From Kordiimonas sp. SCSIO 12603 (GTDB lineage: Bacteria > Pseudomonadota > Alphaproteobacteria > Sphingomonadales > Kordiimonadaceae): a stretch of DNA of 64,000 bases. The translations under genes were made by a program, and so were the position numbers. This document shows, in pieces, positions 7,283-22,547 of this stretch. The stretch spans positions 2,207,520-2,271,519 of the forward strand of contig NZ_CP073748.1 of the NCBI RefSeq assembly GCF_024398035.1, given 5' to 3'. Position 1 is the first letter of the stretch. Each line of letters starts with the position of its first letter. A model generated the notes under the pieces. That model saw only the letters and a list, made by a program, of their open reading frames with translations. It did no database searches and was not told the DNA's origin.

Positions 7283-7305
7283 GAAATTAATGCTGAATAA
7301 AACAT

Positions 7306-7336
7306 GAAAAAGGGGCAGTTTTCTGCCCTTTTTTTA
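7306..7336 (+). terminator. Rho-independent terminator after the S9 peptidase gene
   Basis: The hairpin AAAAAGGGGCAG / CTGCCCTTTTTTT with a TTTT loop lies 24 bases past the stop codon and ends in a seven-base T run. Confidence 0.9.
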
Positions 7337-7461
7337 TATGAAAAATCAATGAGATAAAAGTTTCTAATGTAACTTTAACAGAATCTTGCTTGATTTATTT
7401 AATTACTGGACTAGATAGTCTATTAAGTCATCGGCGTGACTGTTCTGAGTTATAATCAAAC

Positions 7462-7588
7462 AGAGGGACGTCGAAACAGCCTGTTATCAGGAGGGTATAT
7501 CTTCCTTCCTCCCTGATTAGACTTCTGATAATAGGCACCTGGCTGAAGCCGAAGGGGGTGTCTGGATTCTCCCCTTCGGCTTTTCTTT
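7462..7588 (+). ncRNA. Candidate sRNA with anti-Shine-Dalgarno loop
   Basis: The 7337-7593 gap has no gene but is highly structured. A TATAAT hexamer at 7451-7456 precedes a 12-bp stem, GCCTGTTATCAG (7479-7490) with CTGATAATAGGC (7525-7536, one G-U). Its 34-base loop holds the pyrimidine run CTTCCTTCCTCCC, complementary to ribosome binding sites and partly able to pair with the GGAGGG at 7490-7495. A classical terminator follows at 7548-7588. This looks like an independent small RNA of about 125 bases. CCUCC loops are known from alphaproteobacterial cuckoo/CcsR-type sRNAs; membership is a guess. Confidence 0.6.
7548..7588 (+). terminator. Rho-independent terminator of the candidate sRNA
   Basis: Arms GCCGAAGGGG (7548-7557) and CCCCTTCGGC (7571-7580) match perfectly over 10 bp and are followed by TTTTCTTT. 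It points plus-strand, towards the convergent hydrolase gene, so it ends a plus transcript starting after the peptidase terminator. Confidence 0.85.
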
Positions 7589-7593
7589 ATGTT

Positions 7594-10356: not shown

Positions 10357-10950
10357 TTATTCTACCATAAACAGTAGATCATGCTTTCTAAGCAGTTTCG
10401 CGAGTTCTTCCTCGTTTTCTACAACTTCTCTATAAATCCATGTGTACCAGGTTTTGCCAAGAAGAACTCTTCTGGCTTCATCTTTTCCAAACAGAGAAGC
10501 GGATGCATAATATTCTTGAAGGCCTACAATAAGATGCACATAGGTGCTGTAATCGTCACGTGCACCACCACGCCTGCCACTAGGTACTTTCGGATATAAA
10601 GTTTTCAAATCTTTAATAGCCTCATTCACTTGCGGTTCAAAAGCGATACCGAACCAGTGCAACTGCTCGTGAATGAAGGTTGAGAGCGCTGATGCATCAT
10701 CTTCAATAAAATAATCATTCAGTGTTAGTATTGGATGACTGTGCGGAGCGTCATCTTGATCTATCTTAATTGAGTAAGTGAATACGAACGGGCTTACATC
10801 ATATGTATCAAGGAGCCGTTTCAATTGTTTCTCAGCAGCCTTTTCACGGGGAGAGTTATTGGCAAGCCGGATATCAAAGTCAGATGACGAGGCGAAGGCC
10901 GAAAGGCTCAACACAAAAATAAGTGAAATTGTAAGAAGAATTCGAGACAC
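10357..10950 (-). CDS. Secreted protein with HExxH zinc-protease motif
   Basis: A 197-residue exported protein with signal peptide (MSRILLTISLIFVLSLSAFA) and GTG start. The centre has FIHEQLHWFG, a perfect HExxH zinc motif; a glutamate in VGLQEYYA about 60 residues on could be the third ligand, as in gluzincins. I do not recognise the family. It is convergent with the fasciclin gene and has no operon partner. A metallopeptidase or a degenerate relative is likely; activity is inferred from the motif only. Confidence 0.65.
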   Translation of the reverse strand: MSRILLTISLIFVLSLSAFASSSDFDIRLANNSPREKAAEKQLKRLLDTYDVSPFVFTYSIKIDQDDAPHSHPILTLNDYFIEDDASALSTFIHEQLHWFGIAFEPQVNEAIKDLKTLYPKVPSGRRGGARDDYSTYVHLIVGLQEYYASASLFGKDEARRVLLGKTWYTWIYREVVENEEELAKLLRKHDLLFMVE

Positions 10951-11045
10951 GGCATAACCTGATTAAAAAGGTAACGATTTAGCAACCAGAGAAGCCTATA
11001 TTGGTGATACAGGGCACGCTAATAAAGATATCGTGTTAAAGGGGT

Positions 11046-11124
11046 GAATGGCCCCCAGGCTGTTGATGAAAAGGGGGCCATTCGTTCCGCACTTAAGGCT
11101 GTTGATACCATCGGGTTAAGTGCG
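11046..11124 (+). ncRNA. Tandem hairpins with identical loop sequence
   Basis: In the gap 10951-11332 two perfect inverted repeats stand side by side. The first has arms GAATGGCCCCC/GGGGGCCATTC (11046-11056, 11073-11083). The second has arms CGCACTTAA/TTAAGTGCG (11088-11096, 11116-11124). The arms are unrelated, yet both loops contain the same decamer GGCTGTTGAT (11058-11067 and 11097-11106). Conserved loops on different stems suggest a selected RNA element: an sRNA with two seed loops, or the leader of the gene at 11333. Strand is assumed. Confidence 0.55.
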
Positions 11125-11332
11125 AAATTCTATGTTCGAAACAAATATACTTACTTCATGGCATAGAAAATATATCCTTTAAATCAATTTAAATAGATTT
11201 CAGTAATCGTCTTAATCGATAAGTATTGCTTCGCTCCATCACGTTCAAGAGAGCGGATAAGCTCGCTGTTGTAGCCTTTTCAGGAAGGTTTATGTTGGTG
11301 AAGATCTAATATTCGCTTGAGGTATGCATCCT

Positions 11333-11857
11333 ATGTTTTCCAATGCCGTAAAATCTGCTTGTCTTACTGCCACCTTTTTATTCACCGCCGCCATTGAAGC
11401 ACAGGATACAAAAACACCTGAGCAAACCGCGATTGAGAAACTTGAGTTCCTTGTGGGCGAGTGGGAAGGGCCAGGTATCTCTTACCGGCAGGACGGTAGA
11501 GAAAGCCAGTACCACGATAAAGAAAGCGTGTGGTTTGATGTGCAGAATAGCCTGCTTATTATTCAGGCCCGGGGTTTCCGGGATGGCAGACAAACATACG
11601 GTCTTCATACCGTTATCAACTACGATGCTGAAGCCGGGCATTATTGGTATAATCCATACACGTCAAAGGGCGTAAGCAGGCCGTTTAAATGCGTGCTGGA
11701 GGCGAAAGAGTTCAAATGCCGCGTGGAAGATGGTTCTTACCGCCTCACATTCCGCCGCACTGAAGATGGATCATGGAACGAGTTCGGTGAACGCAAAACA
11801 GAGGCTGGCTGGCAAAAGAACTTTGAGACCATTCTGAAAGCGGCACCTTCAAAATAG
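11333..11857 (+). CDS. Secreted lipocalin-like hypothetical protein
   Basis: A 174-residue protein with a signal peptide (MFSNAVKSACLTATFLFTAA, cut near IEAQD). The motif LEFLVGEWEGPG after the first helix is typical of DUF1579-like and FABP/lipocalin-like folds in proteobacteria, and the rest alternates as beta strands. The ATG at 11333 is spaced better from GAGG (11319-11322) than the ATG at 11324. It lies 70 bases before prfC. Ligand and role unknown. Confidence 0.7.
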   Translation: MFSNAVKSACLTATFLFTAAIEAQDTKTPEQTAIEKLEFLVGEWEGPGISYRQDGRESQYHDKESVWFDVQNSLLIIQARGFRDGRQTYGLHTVINYDAEAGHYWYNPYTSKGVSRPFKCVLEAKEFKCRVEDGSYRLTFRRTEDGSWNEFGERKTEAGWQKNFETILKAAPSK

Positions 11858-11927
11858 AATAAATACCTTCCATCTTTCTCAAAAATCGTTATTTTGCGCG
11901 GGAATTTGATTTGGTTGGAAGACTTTC

Positions 11928-13541: not shown

Positions 13542-13578
13542 GCCAGTACTTGATTTAGGTACTGGCTTTTGTTTTTTT
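13542..13578 (+). terminator. Rho-independent terminator after prfC
   Basis: GCCAGTAC (13542-13549) pairs with GTACTGGC (13559-13566), followed by TTTTGTTTTTTT. Confidence 0.92.
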
Positions 13579-13751
13579 AGTATTTAGAAATTAATAAAAT
13601 ATTCTAATTTTTTTGCCTCGCGCGTTTTAATAATCTCTTATTTTTGGAGCTGTTAGAGGTAATGTACTTATTCGTTAAGTTTATAATCTTTTGGTGTTGC
13701 AGATCAAAATCAACTCCCTTAATCAGTGGTGTCTACTAAACGTTTGATTGA

Positions 13752-13777
13752 TTTTCAGTGTTTGCGCTGATGGGGGA
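13752..13777 (+). repeat. Leader repeat upstream of first RTX gene
   Basis: These 26 bases before the start codon are repeated at 17123-17148 before the second RTX gene with one mismatch (TTTGCGCTG against TTTGAGCTG). They include the GGGGGA ribosome site. The shared leader shows that the tandem copies duplicated with their 5' region. Confidence 0.75.
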
Positions 13778-13781
13778 ATAT

Positions 13782-16700
13782 ATGTCTGATATTGTTGGTA
13801 CCGTGGATGCCGAGATTCTTGAAGGTACTGATGGCGATGATGTGATCAGAGGCTTGGATGGGGATGATACACTATTAGGTGGTGCAGGAAATGATACCTT
13901 AATTGGAGGTTTCGGCAGAGATGTACTAGACGGTGGAGAGGGTATCGATACCATAGACTATAGCTCATCCCCAGCGGGCTTTATAATGTTTACTTCTGGA
14001 ATTATTATAGATTTTAATGGTGTAGGTGAAGCATCTCGAGATGTACTGATAAATTTCGAAAACATCATAGGTTCCGTTTTTGCGGACCGTATCTTCGGTA
14101 ATGAAGCAGATAACCTTCTTGATGGAAATGGCGGTGGAGACCTCCTTCAAGGCTTTGAGGGGGATGATACTCTAATTGGTGCTGTAGGCTCTAGCGCTGG
14201 AGCTACATATTCGTCATCTAATGAAGCTGTTTCCATTAACTTAACAACAGGCGAAAACCCATCAGGCGGGCATGCTGAAGGTGACGTTTTAATAAACATC
14301 TCCAGACTTTTTGGTTCTAATTTTGATGATCATCTTGTTGGCCTTTTTGCTCAGCCTACTACTCTAGGAGGCTTTGAGGGCGATGATACTCTTATAGGTG
14401 GATTCGCTGCGGATAGTATCAGTGGTGGCAGTGGTGATGATTTCATCAATGCAGGTGCTGGCGATAATAGGGTTGAAGGAGGAAACGGAGACGATCGGAT
14501 TGAGGCCGGAGCCGGAGATGATATAATTCGCGGGGGTAACGGAGATGATTTTATTGATGCAGGTGAAGGGTTTAACTTCATAGATGCTGGCGATGGTGAT
14601 GACACTGTTCTGGGCGGTAGCGGAATAGATAATGTTATCGTTGGCAATGGGGTTAGTGTTGTCCGTACTGGCGATGGAAATGACACTATAACTATTTTGG
14701 ATGATGGTATTGCGGATGTTGACGGCGGTAATGGGATTGACCAACTGGAAGTTGAAGGAATAGTAGACCTGTTGGCAGGGACGCTTTCCGTTAATGGCCA
14801 AAGTAGCAATATAGCGAACATTGAGGAATTGTTGGCCCCCTTCCAAGCGGGTGATGTTGTTTTTCTGGGCTCAAATAATGACGATCAACTTTCCGGATCC
14901 GATGGAAATGATACGCTGGTTGGCCGGGAAGGTGATGATCTAATTAGAGGTCACGCAGGCGATGACAGCATTGAGGGAAACGCTGGTGACGATAATTTGT
15001 CCGGTGGTAACGGAGATGACCTACTTATAGCTGGCGCCGGTATTGATACATTAAGCGGGGGGGCTGGCGACGACACTTTGATTGGTACCGGTGTTGATCG
15101 CGTACGTGCTTCTTTTTCTGATTTTGATGGAGTCAAAGGAGTTGTTGTTGATCTTGAAGCTGGGAGAGCAACAGACGCTTATGGTGATGTCGATGTACTA
15201 ATAAATATCGTTGATGTTTATGGTACGTCCGGCAATGATCTAATTTCCGGCGATGGTAAGAACAATAGGTTAGAAGGTTTTGATGGAGATGACACACTTA
15301 TTGGTGGCCAAGGTAGAGATACGTTAGGGGGTAGAGCGGGGGATGACTTTCTTGACGGTGGCGAAGGTATCGATGGCGCTCGATTTACATTCTCAGGTGG
15401 TGGAACCCTTGTTGTAGACCTTAATCAAGGTGTTGCTCTTTCGGGAGACGGGGAGCTGGATACACTTGTAAGTATCGAAAACATATTTGGTTCAGCGTTT
15501 GAGAGTAATCTACTGATTGGTGATGCAAATGATAATTTAATACGTGGCTGGAATTTTAATGATACGCTGATTGGAGGTTTGGGAAATGATTTCTTGCAAG
15601 GTGAAGGCGGAGATGATGTCCTTATTGCTGGAGGGGGGAATGACAGCTTATTAGGAGGCGCTGGAGCCGATATATTCGAGTTTAGCGATGATTTTGGACG
15701 TGGCGAAATTTTCCGCTTTGAACTTGGTATTGATAAAATTAATCTGAATGGTTTCGGGATTAATAGTTTTGCAGATGTTCAACGTTTATTTACCACAGGT
15801 ATTAACGGAGGTGCACGGATCAATATCAATGGAAACATCATTGATATTCACGGTATACAAACTTTTGCACTCTCAGCGAACGATTTCACTTTTGAAACAC
15901 GTGACCCAATTATAATCCCTGATCTTCCCGGTCCTGAGCCTATGCCAGAGCCAGAAGAGCCGGTAGGTGATCAGCTTGAACGGGGCGATGATACTAATGA
16001 GGTGATCGAGACCGGTATCGGGAATGATCGTCTGCTCGGATTTGGCGGCAACGATACCCTAATTGGTAATGGCGGTAATGATTTTATCTCTGGAGGTACT
16101 GGAAATGATATTGCCTCCGGCGGCGATGGTGATGATGAAATTTTCGCTGGCCCGGGTGATGAAGGTGATGATCTGTTTGTTGGAGGGCTAGGAAGCGATG
16201 TTATCGGTGGCGGTGCAGGGAATGATACCCTTATCGGTGGTGTTGGTAATGCCTCTATACTTAATGAAACAGCTGATCCAGCCGTAGCTGCCGGTAATAA
16301 TACTCTGTTTGGTGGTGCAGGCGGGGATATTCTGGTCTCAGGTGGGTTTAACGATCTGAACCAAGATAATGTGTTCCAGGACGGCGAGCAGGTAGCAACA
16401 GCAATAACCAATAATGCCGCTTTTGGGGGTAGTGGAAACGATACTATCTACGGTGCGGCTGGTGCAGATGTTTTAGGCGGAGGTGAAGGGGCTGACTTTA
16501 TCAACGCAGGGGCAGGGAATGATACCCTTTTCGGAGGGCAGGAAACTGTTGGAGCGACCTTCTTCAATGACACTTTAATCGGTGGCGATGGTGATGATTT
16601 GATTTTTGCAGGCGCCGAGCGTGATTTTGTGGAAGGTGGCTCGGGTGCGGATAGTTTATTTGGAGGCGCCGGGCTTGATACGATTGTTGGTGGTTTAGGC

Positions 16701-17021
16701 GATGATAGTATCTTTGGCGGCGCTGATGATGACGTTTTAACCGGTGGTGATGGTGCCGATACCTTCTTCTTCGCTGGCAACCATAGGGCAGACGAAATAA
16801 CAGATTTCAACGTTGATGAAGATATACTTTTCCTCGCCAATACGATTGATGATTTAAGCCAAATTGATATCAGCGAATTTGTTCGCGAAACTGTTAGGTC
16901 CAATGGTGTTGATGCTGATGAATTGGGAGTAACCATTTTTACCGGAGGTGGTGATATCTTTATTGCTGACCTGACCGTACAGGATTTTATAGACGGCAAT
17001 ATCAATTGGGTACTGAGTTAA
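13782..17021 (+). CDS. RTX calcium-binding repeat protein, copy 1
   Basis: A 1079-residue acidic protein made mostly of RTX nonapeptides (GGxGxDxUx), for example GGAGNDTLIGG and GNGGNDFISGG, which bind Ca2+ in parallel beta-rolls after export. There is no N-terminal signal peptide; the C-terminus (DFIDGNINWVLS) has the uncharged, aliphatic end usual for type I secretion. A proline/glutamate linker (PEPMPEPEEP) near residue 725 separates an N-terminal block from a C-terminal block shared with copy 2. The latter holds an EF-hand-like loop DLNQDNVFQDGE. I see no catalytic domain. No HlyB/HlyD genes lie in the window. Start chosen at the ATG after GGGGGA. Confidence 0.9.
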   Translation: MSDIVGTVDAEILEGTDGDDVIRGLDGDDTLLGGAGNDTLIGGFGRDVLDGGEGIDTIDYSSSPAGFIMFTSGIIIDFNGVGEASRDVLINFENIIGSVFADRIFGNEADNLLDGNGGGDLLQGFEGDDTLIGAVGSSAGATYSSSNEAVSINLTTGENPSGGHAEGDVLINISRLFGSNFDDHLVGLFAQPTTLGGFEGDDTLIGGFAADSISGGSGDDFINAGAGDNRVEGGNGDDRIEAGAGDDIIRGGNGDDFIDAGEGFNFIDAGDGDDTVLGGSGIDNVIVGNGVSVVRTGDGNDTITILDDGIADVDGGNGIDQLEVEGIVDLLAGTLSVNGQSSNIANIEELLAPFQAGDVVFLGSNNDDQLSGSDGNDTLVGREGDDLIRGHAGDDSIEGNAGDDNLSGGNGDDLLIAGAGIDTLSGGAGDDTLIGTGVDRVRASFSDFDGVKGVVVDLEAGRATDAYGDVDVLINIVDVYGTSGNDLISGDGKNNRLEGFDGDDTLIGGQGRDTLGGRAGDDFLDGGEGIDGARFTFSGGGTLVVDLNQGVALSGDGELDTLVSIENIFGSAFESNLLIGDANDNLIRGWNFNDTLIGGLGNDFLQGEGGDDVLIAGGGNDSLLGGAGADIFEFSDDFGRGEIFRFELGIDKINLNGFGINSFADVQRLFTTGINGGARININGNIIDIHGIQTFALSANDFTFETRDPIIIPDLPGPEPMPEPEEPVGDQLERGDDTNEVIETGIGNDRLLGFGGNDTLIGNGGNDFISGGTGNDIASGGDGDDEIFAGPGDEGDDLFVGGLGSDVIGGGAGNDTLIGGVGNASILNETADPAVAAGNNTLFGGAGGDILVSGGFNDLNQDNVFQDGEQVATAITNNAAFGGSGNDTIYGAAGADVLGGGEGADFINAGAGNDTLFGGQETVGATFFNDTLIGGDGDDLIFAGAERDFVEGGSGADSLFGGAGLDTIVGGLGDDSIFGGADDDVLTGGDGADTFFFAGNHRADEITDFNVDEDILFLANTIDDLSQIDISEFVRETVRSNGVDADELGVTIFTGGGDIFIADLTVQDFIDGNINWVLS
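15987..16793 (+). repeat. 807-bp segment duplicated in second RTX gene
   Basis: This segment matches 19621-20427 at a constant offset of 3634. Reading both line by line I find ten differences, all in third codon positions and silent; the last 350 or so bases are identical. The encoded 269 residues are therefore the same in both proteins. Confidence 0.9.
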
Positions 17022-17035
17022 AAAACGATTTTTTA

Positions 17036-17069
17036 ATAGGGATGTAACATCCCTATCTTTCCTTTTTTT
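17036..17069 (+). terminator. Rho-independent terminator after RTX copy 1
   Basis: ATAGGGATG and CATCCCTAT form a perfect 9-bp stem with loop TAA, followed by CTTTCCTTTTTTT. Copy 2 is therefore probably transcribed from its own promoter. Confidence 0.9.
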
Positions 17070-17122
17070 GCAGATACTCAGACTGAATATTATCGCAAAT
17101 AGCATTAATAAATTTTATCAAT

Positions 17123-17148
17123 TTTTCAGTGTTTGAGCTGATGGGGGA
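17123..17148 (+). repeat. Leader repeat upstream of second RTX gene
   Basis: Second copy of the 26-base leader found at 13752-13777, with one mismatch, placed directly before the start codon. Confidence 0.75.
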
Positions 17149-17151
17149 TGT

Positions 17152-20100
17152 ATGACCAATATTTTGGGCACGGAAAGCGACGATACTCTAGAAGGTACTG
17201 ATGGCGATGATGTGATCAGGGGATTAGACGGGCAAGATACACTATTGGGTGGTGAGGGAAATGACACTTTAATTGGTGGTCTAGGCGCTGATTTGCTTGA
17301 TGGTGGTGAAGGCATTGATACCGCTGATTATAGTGCCTCGACAGCAGGTATATTTATTGGTGATTTTCAATCATTCGTAACTGGCTGGCCTAGTTCAAGT
17401 TCTGGAGAGGGCGCAGGCGATAGGCTTATAAGCATCGAGCACATCATAGGTTCTCCCTTTTCGGATCGCTTGGTCGGTACCGCTGAAGATAACATTTTAA
17501 ATGGCAATGGTGGAAATGACTTTTTAATAGGCCTCGCTGGCGCTGATACTCTGATAGGAGGAGCCAACGATAATGTAGGAACCTCATATGATGCCTCACC
17601 TTCTGGAGTTAATCTAGACCTGGAAGAGGGTACAGCATCTGGTGGTCACGCAGATGGAGACTTGCTGATAAATATTCGGCGTATTGCTGGGTCTGACTTT
17701 GCAGATACGATTAACGGTTCAGAAGCTGATGAGATATTTGCTGGTGATGGTGGAGATGATTACTTAAATGGCGGCGGTGGTGATGATAGCCTGAACGGAC
17801 AATCAGGTCGGGATACACTGATTGGAGGGGCCGGAAATGATACTTTGCTTGGTGGCTTTGGAGTTATAGATGGGGGCGCAGGTGATGATTATATTTTCTT
17901 TAACGGTACCTTCAGTGGCGATGTGACCATTGATGGTGGTAGTGGTAATGATACATTATTCGCTTTTTCTTCTGGTGATATTGATCTCAATACTGGCGCA
18001 GTTACCGATGAAACAGGTGCACAGATAAATCAAATTTCAGGGTTCGAAAATCTAGAAACGGGTTTTAGTTTTCGCTCTGTCCACTATGTAGGCAATGAAT
18101 TTTCCAATGGCCTACGCGGAGGTCAACATAGTGATCTTTTAGAAGGTAGGGCTGGAAATGATACACTTATCGGTGGTGATGGAGATGATACCTTAATTGG
18201 CGGCCTGGGTGATGATGAAATTGAAGGTGGAGCAGGCAGCGATTTAATTGTTTTGGAAGCTGACCACGGTAACGATGTTCTTTCCACCATTACAAGCTTA
18301 GATATTATTGATATATCCGCGATCTCTTCGATTGCTGATATTCAGCAGTTATTGGCCAACGCATCTGAAACTATGGTTAATGGGACATCGGGTGTACTGG
18401 TACAAACGGGCATTAGCAGTAGCCTTTTCTTTAGTGGTTTAACCCTATCCGACATAGAAAATGTTGGGTTTAACTTTGTGAATGGTGGGGTGAACTCCTC
18501 CAGTTCTGAAGGTGTCGTTGGCGGAGCAGGGGATCAAACCGATGGTGATGATACACTGACCGGGACGACGGACCCTGAGGTTATTGAGGGTGGAGCGGGT
18601 AATGATGTGTTGCAAAGTAGATCAGGTGGAACAGGAGGGGATACGCTGAGAGGCGGTAGTGGTGATGATGAGCTGATTGGAAATGCCATCAACCGGTCTG
18701 GTGAAGGGGATTTGCTGGAAGGTGGCGACGGAAATGACACTCTTCGGGGATTAGATGGGCCAGATACGTTAATTGGTGGACCTGGTGCGGATACCTTTTT
18801 TGGAGAGAATTCTAGCGTTCCTACCTTTACTTTCGAATTTGTTTCCTATGCAACGTCATCGGCTGGTGTAAATGTTGATAATTTTGTTACCACACGCAAT
18901 GGCACGTTTGAGGGACGAGGCCTTGGTGGTGATGCTGAAGGCGATATCCTTTTTAATATTCAGAACATTATTGGATCAGCTTTTAATGACACTTTAACAG
19001 GTGGAGGCTTCCTGCGAGGAGGAGATGGCAACGATCTTCTAACGGATAATGGTATTGCTCCCAATAAACCTGCTGTTGGAGAGGCAGAACTATCTGGTGG
19101 TAGTGGCGATGATACGCTTTTAGGCAGTAGTCGTGGAGGTACCACTTTTGAAGGTGGTACCGGTCAGGATCTATTCATTATTCATGATAATCTTTGGGGT
19201 GATACGATCTTTGATTATACTACTGAAGATATAATCGATATCTCACGCCTTAATTCTGAGTTGCGTAATTTGGAAGAGGTTAGGGAAATTGCATCGCTAA
19301 ATGTTGATGGGAACCTTCAAATAGAGGTTTCTGGCGGTGTTTTCCTTACATTAAATGGATTAAGTATTGATGATCTAGACAATATCAATTTTATTTTTGC
19401 AGAATCAGATCCAACGCCAGATCCAACGCCAGATCCAACGCCAGATCCAACGCCAGATCCAACGCCAGATCCAACGCCAGATCCAACGCCAGATCCAACG
19501 CCAGATCCAACGCCAGATCCAACGCCAGATCCAGATCCCACTCCTGACCCAGAGCCAGATCCTGAGCCTACTCCTGACCCAGAGCCAGAAGAACCTGTAG
19601 GCAATCAACTTGAGCGTGGCGATGATACTAATGAGGTGATCGAGACCGGTATCGGGAATGATCGCCTACTCGGATTTGGCGGCAACGATACCCTAATTGG
19701 TAATGGCGGTAATGATTTTATCTCTGGAGGTACTGGAAATGATATTGCCTCCGGCGGCGATGGTGATGATGAAATTTTCGCTGGCCCGGGTGATGAAGGT
19801 GATGATCTGTTTGTTGGAGGGCTAGGAAGCGATGTTATCGGCGGCGGTGCAGGGAATGATACCCTTATCGGTGGCGTTGGTAATGCCTCTATCCTTAATG
19901 AAACAGCTGATCCAGCCGTAGCCGCCGGTAATAACACTCTGTTTGGTGGTGCAGGCGGGGATATTCTGGTCTCAGGTGGGTTTAACGATCTGAACCAAGA
20001 TAACGTGTTCCAGGACGGCGAGCAGGTAGCAACAGCAATAACCAATAATGCCGCTTTTGGAGGTAGTGGAAATGATACTATCTACGGTGCGGCTGGTGCA

Positions 20101-20661
20101 GATGTTTTAGGCGGAGGTGAAGGGGCTGACTTTATCAACGCAGGGGCAGGGAATGATACCCTTTTCGGAGGGCAGGAAACTGTTGGAGCGACCTTCTTCA
20201 ATGACACTTTAATCGGTGGCGATGGTGATGATTTGATTTTTGCAGGCGCCGAGCGTGATTTTGTGGAAGGTGGCTCGGGTGCGGATAGTTTATTTGGAGG
20301 CGCCGGGCTTGATACGATTGTTGGTGGTTTAGGCGATGATAGTATCTTTGGCGGCGCTGATGATGACGTTTTAACCGGTGGTGATGGTGCCGATACCTTC
20401 TTCTTCGCTGGCAACCATAGGGCAGACCGTATTACTGACTTTGATATTAACGAAGATATTTTGTTCCTTGCAAATACGTCGAACGATTTAAGCTTGATTG
20501 AAGATGTTCAAACGTTTGTTTTAGAGGCGACGCTGAGCTTTAGTGATAGGGATGAGGTTATCTTTGGTGTAAGTGTTGAAACTGGTGGGGGCAGTGTTTT
20601 TATCGATGGTTTGACTGTGCAGGATTTTGTAGATGGTAATGTTAATTGGGTGCTGAGTTAA
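17152..20661 (+). CDS. RTX calcium-binding repeat protein, copy 2
   Basis: A 1169-residue paralogue of the previous gene. The N-terminal half has RTX blocks (GGDGDDTLIGG) interrupted by less repetitive beta-rich inserts. A Pro-Thr-Pro-Asp linker at about residues 754-810, encoded by a 12-bp tandem repeat, joins it to a C-terminal block of which 269 residues are identical to copy 1. After that block the two diverge (RADRITDFDINEDILF against RADEITDFNVDEDILF) but end alike in NVNWVLS. Like copy 1 it has no signal peptide, so type I secretion is inferred. Surface, adhesive or S-layer-like roles are possible; no enzyme domain is seen. Confidence 0.9.
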   Translation: MTNILGTESDDTLEGTDGDDVIRGLDGQDTLLGGEGNDTLIGGLGADLLDGGEGIDTADYSASTAGIFIGDFQSFVTGWPSSSSGEGAGDRLISIEHIIGSPFSDRLVGTAEDNILNGNGGNDFLIGLAGADTLIGGANDNVGTSYDASPSGVNLDLEEGTASGGHADGDLLINIRRIAGSDFADTINGSEADEIFAGDGGDDYLNGGGGDDSLNGQSGRDTLIGGAGNDTLLGGFGVIDGGAGDDYIFFNGTFSGDVTIDGGSGNDTLFAFSSGDIDLNTGAVTDETGAQINQISGFENLETGFSFRSVHYVGNEFSNGLRGGQHSDLLEGRAGNDTLIGGDGDDTLIGGLGDDEIEGGAGSDLIVLEADHGNDVLSTITSLDIIDISAISSIADIQQLLANASETMVNGTSGVLVQTGISSSLFFSGLTLSDIENVGFNFVNGGVNSSSSEGVVGGAGDQTDGDDTLTGTTDPEVIEGGAGNDVLQSRSGGTGGDTLRGGSGDDELIGNAINRSGEGDLLEGGDGNDTLRGLDGPDTLIGGPGADTFFGENSSVPTFTFEFVSYATSSAGVNVDNFVTTRNGTFEGRGLGGDAEGDILFNIQNIIGSAFNDTLTGGGFLRGGDGNDLLTDNGIAPNKPAVGEAELSGGSGDDTLLGSSRGGTTFEGGTGQDLFIIHDNLWGDTIFDYTTEDIIDISRLNSELRNLEEVREIASLNVDGNLQIEVSGGVFLTLNGLSIDDLDNINFIFAESDPTPDPTPDPTPDPTPDPTPDPTPDPTPDPTPDPTPDPTPDPDPTPDPEPDPEPTPDPEPEEPVGNQLERGDDTNEVIETGIGNDRLLGFGGNDTLIGNGGNDFISGGTGNDIASGGDGDDEIFAGPGDEGDDLFVGGLGSDVIGGGAGNDTLIGGVGNASILNETADPAVAAGNNTLFGGAGGDILVSGGFNDLNQDNVFQDGEQVATAITNNAAFGGSGNDTIYGAAGADVLGGGEGADFINAGAGNDTLFGGQETVGATFFNDTLIGGDGDDLIFAGAERDFVEGGSGADSLFGGAGLDTIVGGLGDDSIFGGADDDVLTGGDGADTFFFAGNHRADRITDFDINEDILFLANTSNDLSLIEDVQTFVLEATLSFSDRDEVIFGVSVETGGGSVFIDGLTVQDFVDGNVNWVLS
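19411..19530 (+). repeat. Ten perfect 12-bp tandem repeats (PTPD linker)
   Basis: The unit CCAACGCCAGAT occurs ten times without a mismatch and encodes Pro-Thr-Pro-Asp. The unit is a multiple of three, so slippage changes linker length without breaking the frame. Degenerate copies continue to about 19590. Copy 1 has only a short PEPMPEPEEP at the same place. Confidence 0.95.
19621..20427 (+). repeat. 807-bp segment duplicated from first RTX gene
   Basis: Partner of 15987-16793, differing by about ten silent changes. The boundary is sharp on the 3' side, just after GGGCAGAC, where both DNA and protein diverge. Confidence 0.9.
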
Positions 20662-20730
20662 TTCTCTTATCTAGTAGAAAGGCTTGAATAAGTATTTCTC
20701 CTTAAATGAGTTTTGATCATCATACTGGTG

Positions 20731-20770
20731 AAGGCGTCACGTTTTTGTGAAAAATGTGTCGCCTTTTTTT
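20731..20770 (+). terminator. Rho-independent terminator after RTX copy 2
   Basis: AAGGCGTCAC pairs with GTGTCGCCTT (one mismatch) around an A/T-rich loop, followed by TTTTT. Confidence 0.85.
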
Positions 20771-20855
20771 GTTGTCGAGAAAATGCCGCATTTCTCATTC
20801 AGCGTACATCGCTAAGCGTGTATTTGTTTTCTATTAGTTGCAATGGTTGGGGCGT

Positions 20856-22547
20856 ATGACTGATATTTTAGGTACTGAAAATGATGATACCTTAATTGGT
20901 ACAGATGGTAACGATGTTATTCGAGGCTTGGGCGGGAATGATTCTATTCTAGGTGGAGCAGGTGATGATACCTTAATCGGCGGTTTGGGGGCGGATCAGC
21001 TTGATGGTGGTGAGGGTGTTGATACCATTGATTACAGTGCTTCTTCCGAAGGCATCCTCATGACATCCATTGGTCTGGTTGTTGGCTTTCCCAACCCTAT
21101 AGCTGGCTCCGGTGCCTTTGATATTCTTACTAATTACGAAAACATTATCGGTTCTGTTTTTGCTGATGAAATATTCGGGAATGAAGCTGACAATATTCTT
21201 GATGGCAATGGAGGCACGGATTTTCTTCAAGGCTTTGAAGGTGATGATACTTTAATTGGTGCAGAAGGTTCTAATTCTGCAGCGCTGTATTTCTCTTCTG
21301 ATGAGGCAGTCTCAATTAATCTTGCTACGGGTGAAAACCCTTCGGGGGGGCATGCTGAAGGTGACGTTCTTATCAATATCTCTCAGCTATTTGGTTCCGA
21401 ATTTAACGATCTTTTAGTTGGGTTTGCTGATCAATCTACAACGCTTGATGGCTTTACGGGTGATGACACTTTAATAGGCGGGACTGCTGGGGACAGGATA
21501 GAGGGCGGTAGTGGAAACGATACAATAGATGGTGCTGATGGCGCTGATAATATTAGAGGCGAAAACGGTAATGATTATATAGAAGCGGGCGACGGCAATG
21601 ATTTTGTATCTGGTGGAAACGGAGATGATATAGCCTTCGGCGGCGCGGGAGACGATGAAATTTTTGCAGGACCTAATGACGAAGGTAATGATCTGTTCAT
21701 TGGGGGACTGGGCTCAGATACCATAGGGGCTGGGGCTGGTAATGATACGGTTGTTGGCGGTGTTGGTAATGTTTCTGGTACAGATGAACTTTCAACATCG
21801 GCTATTGATGCCGAAAGCAATGTGCTTTTTGGTGGTGCAGGCAATGACATACTTATCGTAGGTGGTTTTGATGACGAAAACCAAGATGGTACTTTCCAGA
21901 GCGGAGAACAAATAACCAGTAGCACAGCCAGTAATGTCGCTTTTGCAGGGGTGGGTGATGATACCCTCTATGGTGTTTTGGGCGCTGATATCCTAGGCGG
22001 TGGTGATGGCGCTGATTTTATTGAAGCCAGTGGTGGTGATGACACCATATTTGGAGGGCGTGAAAGCAGCGGTAATGTACTGTTTAACGATACCTTGAAT
22101 GGTGGAGCAGGAAACGACGTTATTTTTGCTGGCGCCTTAAGCGATTCAGTTGACGGTGGTGCTGATGAAGATCAACTTTTTGGCGGTGCTGGAAATGACA
22201 CAATCGATGCAGGTAGCGGTGATGACAGTATATTTGGTGGCGCTGGTAATGATACCCTAACGGGTGGTGATGGTGCCGATATTTTCTATTTCGCCAATAC
22301 ACACGGCAATGATGAAATTCTCGATTTTAGTATAGGCGATGATACTTTGTTTTTGGCTAATACCGCTACAGACCTGAGTTCGATTGCTGATATCGCTGAC
22401 TTTATCTCCAATGAAACGAGGACAGATGCATTATCAGGCACCGAGGTGAATGGTGTTGTTATTGATACAGGCGGTGGGGAGATATTTATTCGTGGTCTGA
22501 CATTGGCAGATTTCGAGAATAGTACCGTTAATATAGTGCTGAGCTAA
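20856..22547 (+). CDS. RTX calcium-binding repeat protein, copy 3 (short)
   Basis: A 563-residue paralogue. Its N-terminal part resembles copy 1 (ENIIGSVFADEIFGNEADNI and the SGGHAEGDVLINIS segment), and its C-terminal part resembles the block shared by copies 1 and 2, including the EF-hand-like DDENQDGTFQSGE and the end TVNIVLS. It lacks the middle RTX blocks and the linker, so it looks like a compact or ancestral form and is much more diverged at DNA level. The ATG at 20856 follows TGGTTGGGG. It ends four bases from the convergent LysE gene. Type I secretion is inferred. Confidence 0.88.
   Translation: MTDILGTENDDTLIGTDGNDVIRGLGGNDSILGGAGDDTLIGGLGADQLDGGEGVDTIDYSASSEGILMTSIGLVVGFPNPIAGSGAFDILTNYENIIGSVFADEIFGNEADNILDGNGGTDFLQGFEGDDTLIGAEGSNSAALYFSSDEAVSINLATGENPSGGHAEGDVLINISQLFGSEFNDLLVGFADQSTTLDGFTGDDTLIGGTAGDRIEGGSGNDTIDGADGADNIRGENGNDYIEAGDGNDFVSGGNGDDIAFGGAGDDEIFAGPNDEGNDLFIGGLGSDTIGAGAGNDTVVGGVGNVSGTDELSTSAIDAESNVLFGGAGNDILIVGGFDDENQDGTFQSGEQITSSTASNVAFAGVGDDTLYGVLGADILGGGDGADFIEASGGDDTIFGGRESSGNVLFNDTLNGGAGNDVIFAGALSDSVDGGADEDQLFGGAGNDTIDAGSGDDSIFGGAGNDTLTGGDGADIFYFANTHGNDEILDFSIGDDTLFLANTATDLSSIADIADFISNETRTDALSGTEVNGVVIDTGGGEIFIRGLTLADFENSTVNIVLS

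Follow-up and report, generated by a model that had tools for sequence, protein, structure and literature searches.

A pair of adjacent perfect hairpins that present the same decamer in their loops lies upstream of prfC in the Kordiimonas genome, within the 64,000-nt stretch of DNA that was analyzed (the window). The pair occurs once in the genome, and in one relative its stems have changed in a compensatory manner and the core of the second loop has been kept. We conclude that this is probably a real structured element restricted to the lineage of a few species, and that its most likely identity is an unannotated small RNA. Our leading explanation, which we put forward tentatively and at somewhat under even confidence, is that an unannotated RNA, restricted to this lineage and encoded between genes upstream of prfC, has the twin hairpins as its structured core and carries a binding loop.

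Twin hairpins and their shared loop word

The locus comprises the following features:

10357-10950, minus strand: gene of unknown function (197 aa), left flank of the hairpin gap
10951-11323: noncoding gap between genes, host to the twin hairpins
11002-11209, no strand assigned: 208-bp stretch identical to K. laminariae, containing both hairpins
11046-11083, plus strand: hairpin 1, perfect 11-bp stem and 16-nt loop
11058-11067, plus strand: copy 1 of the loop decamer GGCTGTTGAT, in the loop of hairpin 1
11088-11124, plus strand: hairpin 2, perfect 9-bp stem and 19-nt loop
11097-11106, plus strand: copy 2 of the loop decamer, in the loop of hairpin 2
11128-11168, plus strand: weaker third hairpin TTCTATG...CATAGAA with a long loop, predicted by RNA folding; membership in the element uncertain
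11135-11222, plus strand: A+T-rich tail, alignable with a relative (G019)
11324-11857, plus strand: gene of unknown function (177 aa), right flank of the gap
11880-11902: promoter-like motif of prfC, AAATCGCTAGGGTGCGC, which reads AAAAATCGTTATTTTGCGC in the window's species
11928: start of prfC, following the 177-aa gene (name read from the sequence, not from a family search)

Hairpin 1 consists of the 5' arm GAATGGCCCCC (11046-11056), the loop AGGCTGTTGATGAAAA (11057-11072), and the 3' arm GGGGGCCATTC (11073-11083); hairpin 2 consists of CGCACTTAA (11088-11096), the loop GGCTGTTGATACCATCGGG (11097-11115), and TTAAGTGCG (11116-11124). The earlier note had described a pair of perfect hairpins (11 and 9 bp) with unrelated stems and a common loop decamer, and all of this was confirmed at exact coordinates. 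The word common to both hairpins extends to 11 letters, AGGCTGTTGAT, its first A being a stem letter in hairpin 2. Both hairpins are present in the minimum-energy RNA fold, in which loop 2 has some weak internal pairs. The product of the gene on the left is probably secreted and contains the motif HEQLH, so it may be a zinc peptidase; a Pfam search of the 197-aa protein gave no match.

The window contains 17 perfect hairpins with stems of 9 bp or longer, compared with 5.7 in shuffled sequence. The twin hairpins are its sole adjacent pair (gap of 20 nt or less), and 20 shuffled windows yielded one such pair in total. We estimate the chance that loops of 16 and 19 nt have a decamer in common at ~8e-5 per pair, in agreement with the earlier claim that chance repetition is unlikely. 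Two caveats apply to this estimate: the loop word is overrepresented in the genome (28 exact sites versus ~7 expected, mostly Ala-Val-Asp codons), and its two copies lie 39 nt, or 13 codons, apart within one open frame. The 11-letter word occurs 10 times in the genome, with hairpin loops of this kind only at the two copies described here, and no second decamer pair was found elsewhere in the genome. A slightly relaxed pattern of the pair was detected in 7 of the 401 genomes of the order, in hairpins only in the window's species (G000) and in K. laminariae 5E331 (G016). Among the matches listed are viral contigs, one of which (L225) carries the pair within a 33-nt tandem repeat whose stems are 8 bp long; this case is unrelated.

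Conservation and stem changes among relatives

Over the 64 kb, intergenic sequence differs by ~5% overall between the window's species and K. laminariae, and by 1-3% in many gaps; identical runs longer than 208 bp also exist, in or overlapping genes. The identity at 11002-11209 is thus moderate evidence of constraint and, given the low intergenic background, not decisive as proof of conservation when taken by itself. At the level of sequence, the repeated decamer itself is seen just in these two near-identical species. Elsewhere in the window, the region from ~13570 to 22000 has either diverged strongly from that of K. laminariae or been rearranged, and includes a large RTX-like gene with GGxGxD repeats (13758-17021).

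A more distant counterpart was identified in G019, where both hairpins occur at the corresponding place upstream of prfC. A covariance model built from the window's species and K. laminariae alone, and searched against both strands of whole loci, matched G019 with 18 bits (E 0.036 in 156 kb), and the alignment spans both hairpins end to end. A scan of whole genomes with the model did not list G019 at E 1; homology is therefore argued from the place and from the downstream tail, which aligns in the same order after the hairpins with a local-alignment score that no shuffle attained (0 of 200 and 0 of 100). Across the 20 stem pairs, eight differ on both sides between the window's species and G019, none on one side only, and four are broken, a count made on an alignment fitted to the covariance model and from two distinct sequences only; slid-register controls gave 0-1 changes on both sides. 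The model-guided alignment was used because the MAFFT alignment had the 3' arm of hairpin 2 in the wrong place.

The earlier note had looked for loop conservation with stem covariation, and the two hairpins differ in this respect. In G019, hairpin 2 has the stem GCATTCGC/GCGAATGC, with four of nine pairs changed on both sides, and its loop retains the core CTGTTGA.ACCA at equal spacing from TCCGCA, as anticipated. The stem of hairpin 1 is kept (four of 11 pairs changed on both sides, three broken), and its loop has become CTATTGTAA, with loss of the decamer. Nor does the expectation hold in G002, the sister of G019 (72% identity to it over the region), in which hairpin 2 is disrupted and neither loop motif survives. 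At the place of the third hairpin G019 has a different, much stronger one. Overall, the G019 locus (L065, 960-1180) presents a row of very stable hairpins before prfC, namely a 15-bp terminator, hairpins 1 and 2, and the long third hairpin; the stretch 950-1240 has a folding z of -9.4.

No trace of the element was found in G004, in G008, or in 12 other Kordiimonas genomes with a comparable prfC region. A prfC tree places the four carriers in a single supported clade that also includes G004 and G008, and hence requires either two losses or a more intricate history; only two species pairs are informative. Weak covariance-model matches in G003, G021, G004, G028, G018, and G007 (E 0.15-0.7 per genome) were taken as chance; for three of them the surroundings were read, and these three are located within genes for a TonB receptor, an ABC ATPase, and UvrB (as named from sequence). 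Two further similarities were also attributed to chance: one between 11128-11163 and a G008 hydrolase gene read in antisense (score attained by 3-6 of 300 shuffles; no match to the window's own hydrolase), and one of 53 nt (E 5e-3) between the A+T-rich tail and a gene of an Acinetobacter phage.

Competing explanations and a possible binding partner

The motif AAATCGCTAGGGTGCGC lies ~50-65 nt upstream of prfC in most of the genus Kordiimonas, which places the hairpins upstream of the prfC promoter. The 177-aa gene, sought among relatives, was not found in G019. Together, these observations make a separate small RNA more likely than a leader of prfC or of the 177-aa gene. The A+T-rich tail is perhaps the promoter region of the downstream unit. 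A TATATT/TATACT hexamer at 10997-11002, seen by eye only, is a possible -10 element, and no convincing promoter was seen near the hairpins. An intrinsic terminator scan of both strands, limited to loops of 3-8 nt, gave no site at the hairpins, and by eye there is no T run beside the stems. At gathering scores, searches of the window with the Rfam covariance models returned nothing, and over 10900-11350 there was no match up to E 5.

A structured RNA is favored by the adjacency of the perfect hairpins and their improbable common loop word, the single copy, the syntenic counterpart in G019 with its compensation, and the confinement to one prfC clade; it is weakened by the drift of loop 1 in G019, the loss of hairpin 2 and the motifs in G002, the absence of any trace in most of the genus, and the want of a convincing promoter or terminator. 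The same drift and decay, together with the perfection of the stems, would suit inverted repeats that act, if at all, as DNA without RNA function, an explanation that we consider unlikely as a whole yet worth serious attention. In that case quasi-palindromes would be kept perfect by replication template switching, in which one arm is rewritten from the other, a process that mimics compensatory change, and the loop word would be the relic of a short tandem duplication; the common word is indeed accompanied in both loops by GGG at equal distance, as a duplication would leave it. Correction of arms would not, however, preserve the core of loop 2 between the window's species and G019 while four stem pairs change. 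A short coding sequence, present or past, is very improbable, either as the frame 11044-11166 (MNGPQAVDEKGAIRSALKAVDTIGLSAKFYVRNKYTYFMA), in which the decamer reads Ala-Val-Asp twice, or as a 23-aa leader peptide opening at ATG 11048. The spacing of the copies in one open frame agrees with coding, as does the finding that, among the matches listed for a one-letter-shorter repeat, 126 of 156 have a spacing divisible by three, as genes would (these matches are nearly all in viral contigs, with a few in genomes of the order, and include the twin-hairpin element). Against it, a Pfam search gave no match, the frame is broken in G019 by a 5-nt length difference between anchors with a stop directly after the second motif, and a coding sequence is not expected to yield two adjacent perfect stems.

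The earlier note had also proposed a two-seed antisense RNA, in which both loops would pair with ATCAACAGCC near the translation starts of its targets. In the predicted fold the loops are open to pairing except for the weak pairs in loop 2, and a site 33 nt ahead of the obg start codon (gene named from sequence) has 12 letters complementary to loop 2. This is, however, the only one of 26 other ATCAACAGCC sites in the genome that lies directly upstream of a start codon, about the number expected by chance (~1, for 60-nt zones and ~3,800 genes, a rough guess from genome size), and most of the others are inside coding sequence. TCAACA-like words precede prfC in three of 18 genomes, the window's species not being among them. 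The proposal was therefore not borne out, and we regard antisense pairing as quite unlikely.

Returning to a structured RNA with a binding loop, we predict that the element is transcribed, with the plus strand as the functional one, and that each hairpin would display a single-stranded loop. Because the same word, GGCUGUUGAU, is in both loops in the window's species and its nearest relative, one short RNA could offer two binding places to one partner; a protein is a likelier partner than the start site of an mRNA. A model in which the RNA binds a protein through its repeated loops would fit the architecture of the two hairpins. It is a long shot that the pair represents a new small-RNA family whose two stems evolve independently and display one recognition loop twice, to a candidate dimeric Kordiimonas RNA-binding protein with a CUGUUGA specificity unlike that of CsrA. 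If transcribed, the element would add a structured RNA not previously described, and with it a compact natural example of same-sequence loops on unrelated stems; the literature searched contained no dedicated small-RNA study of Kordiimonas. The narrow range and partly drifting loops make its interest moderate at present.

Known systems and a neighboring candidate gene

REP palindromes are dispersed and present in many copies. The twin hairpins resemble REP/BIME elements as adjacent inverted repeats within an intergenic gap and differ from them in being single copy. The loops of the alphaproteobacterial small RNAs CcsR1-4 carry a CCUCC-type motif; the Kordiimonas loop motif is different, and there are two hairpins. 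CcsR1-4 of Rhodobacter sphaeroides are homologous small RNAs that share a transcript with ccaF1 and are released from its 3' UTR by processing (PMC8307010); no ccaF1-like gene was identified beside the Kordiimonas hairpins. The four stem-loops of RsmZ have loops of the form A(N)GGAX (PMC4005645). Like CsrB/RsmZ-type sponge RNAs, the element has adjacent stem-loops that could offer one short loop motif to one (dimeric) protein. Unlike them, it has two hairpins rather than four or more, its loops carry GGCUGUUGAU and contain no GGA, and a terminator was not seen. By analogy, a repeated loop on unrelated stems could in principle work like the GGA loops of RsmZ with a different motif.

Another gap in the window, 7283-7593, looks like a better small-RNA gene than the twin hairpins:

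7409-7592: candidate small-RNA gene, with a conserved block at 7409, a folded stretch, and an intrinsic terminator

The conserved block reads GACTAGATAGTCTATTAAG / GGACTAGATAGTCTATTAAG. The stretch 7427-7592 folds strongly (z -4.7) and has a pyrimidine-rich loop holding TCTTCCTTCCTCCC, and the intrinsic terminator is at 7546-7582 (AAGCCGAAGGGG...CCCCTTCGGCTTTTCTTT). Rfam matches in this area were below threshold only. Counterparts with C-rich loops and terminators were identified upstream of prfC in G019, G002, and G004, and the conserved block is also present in G001, G005, G011, and K. laminariae.
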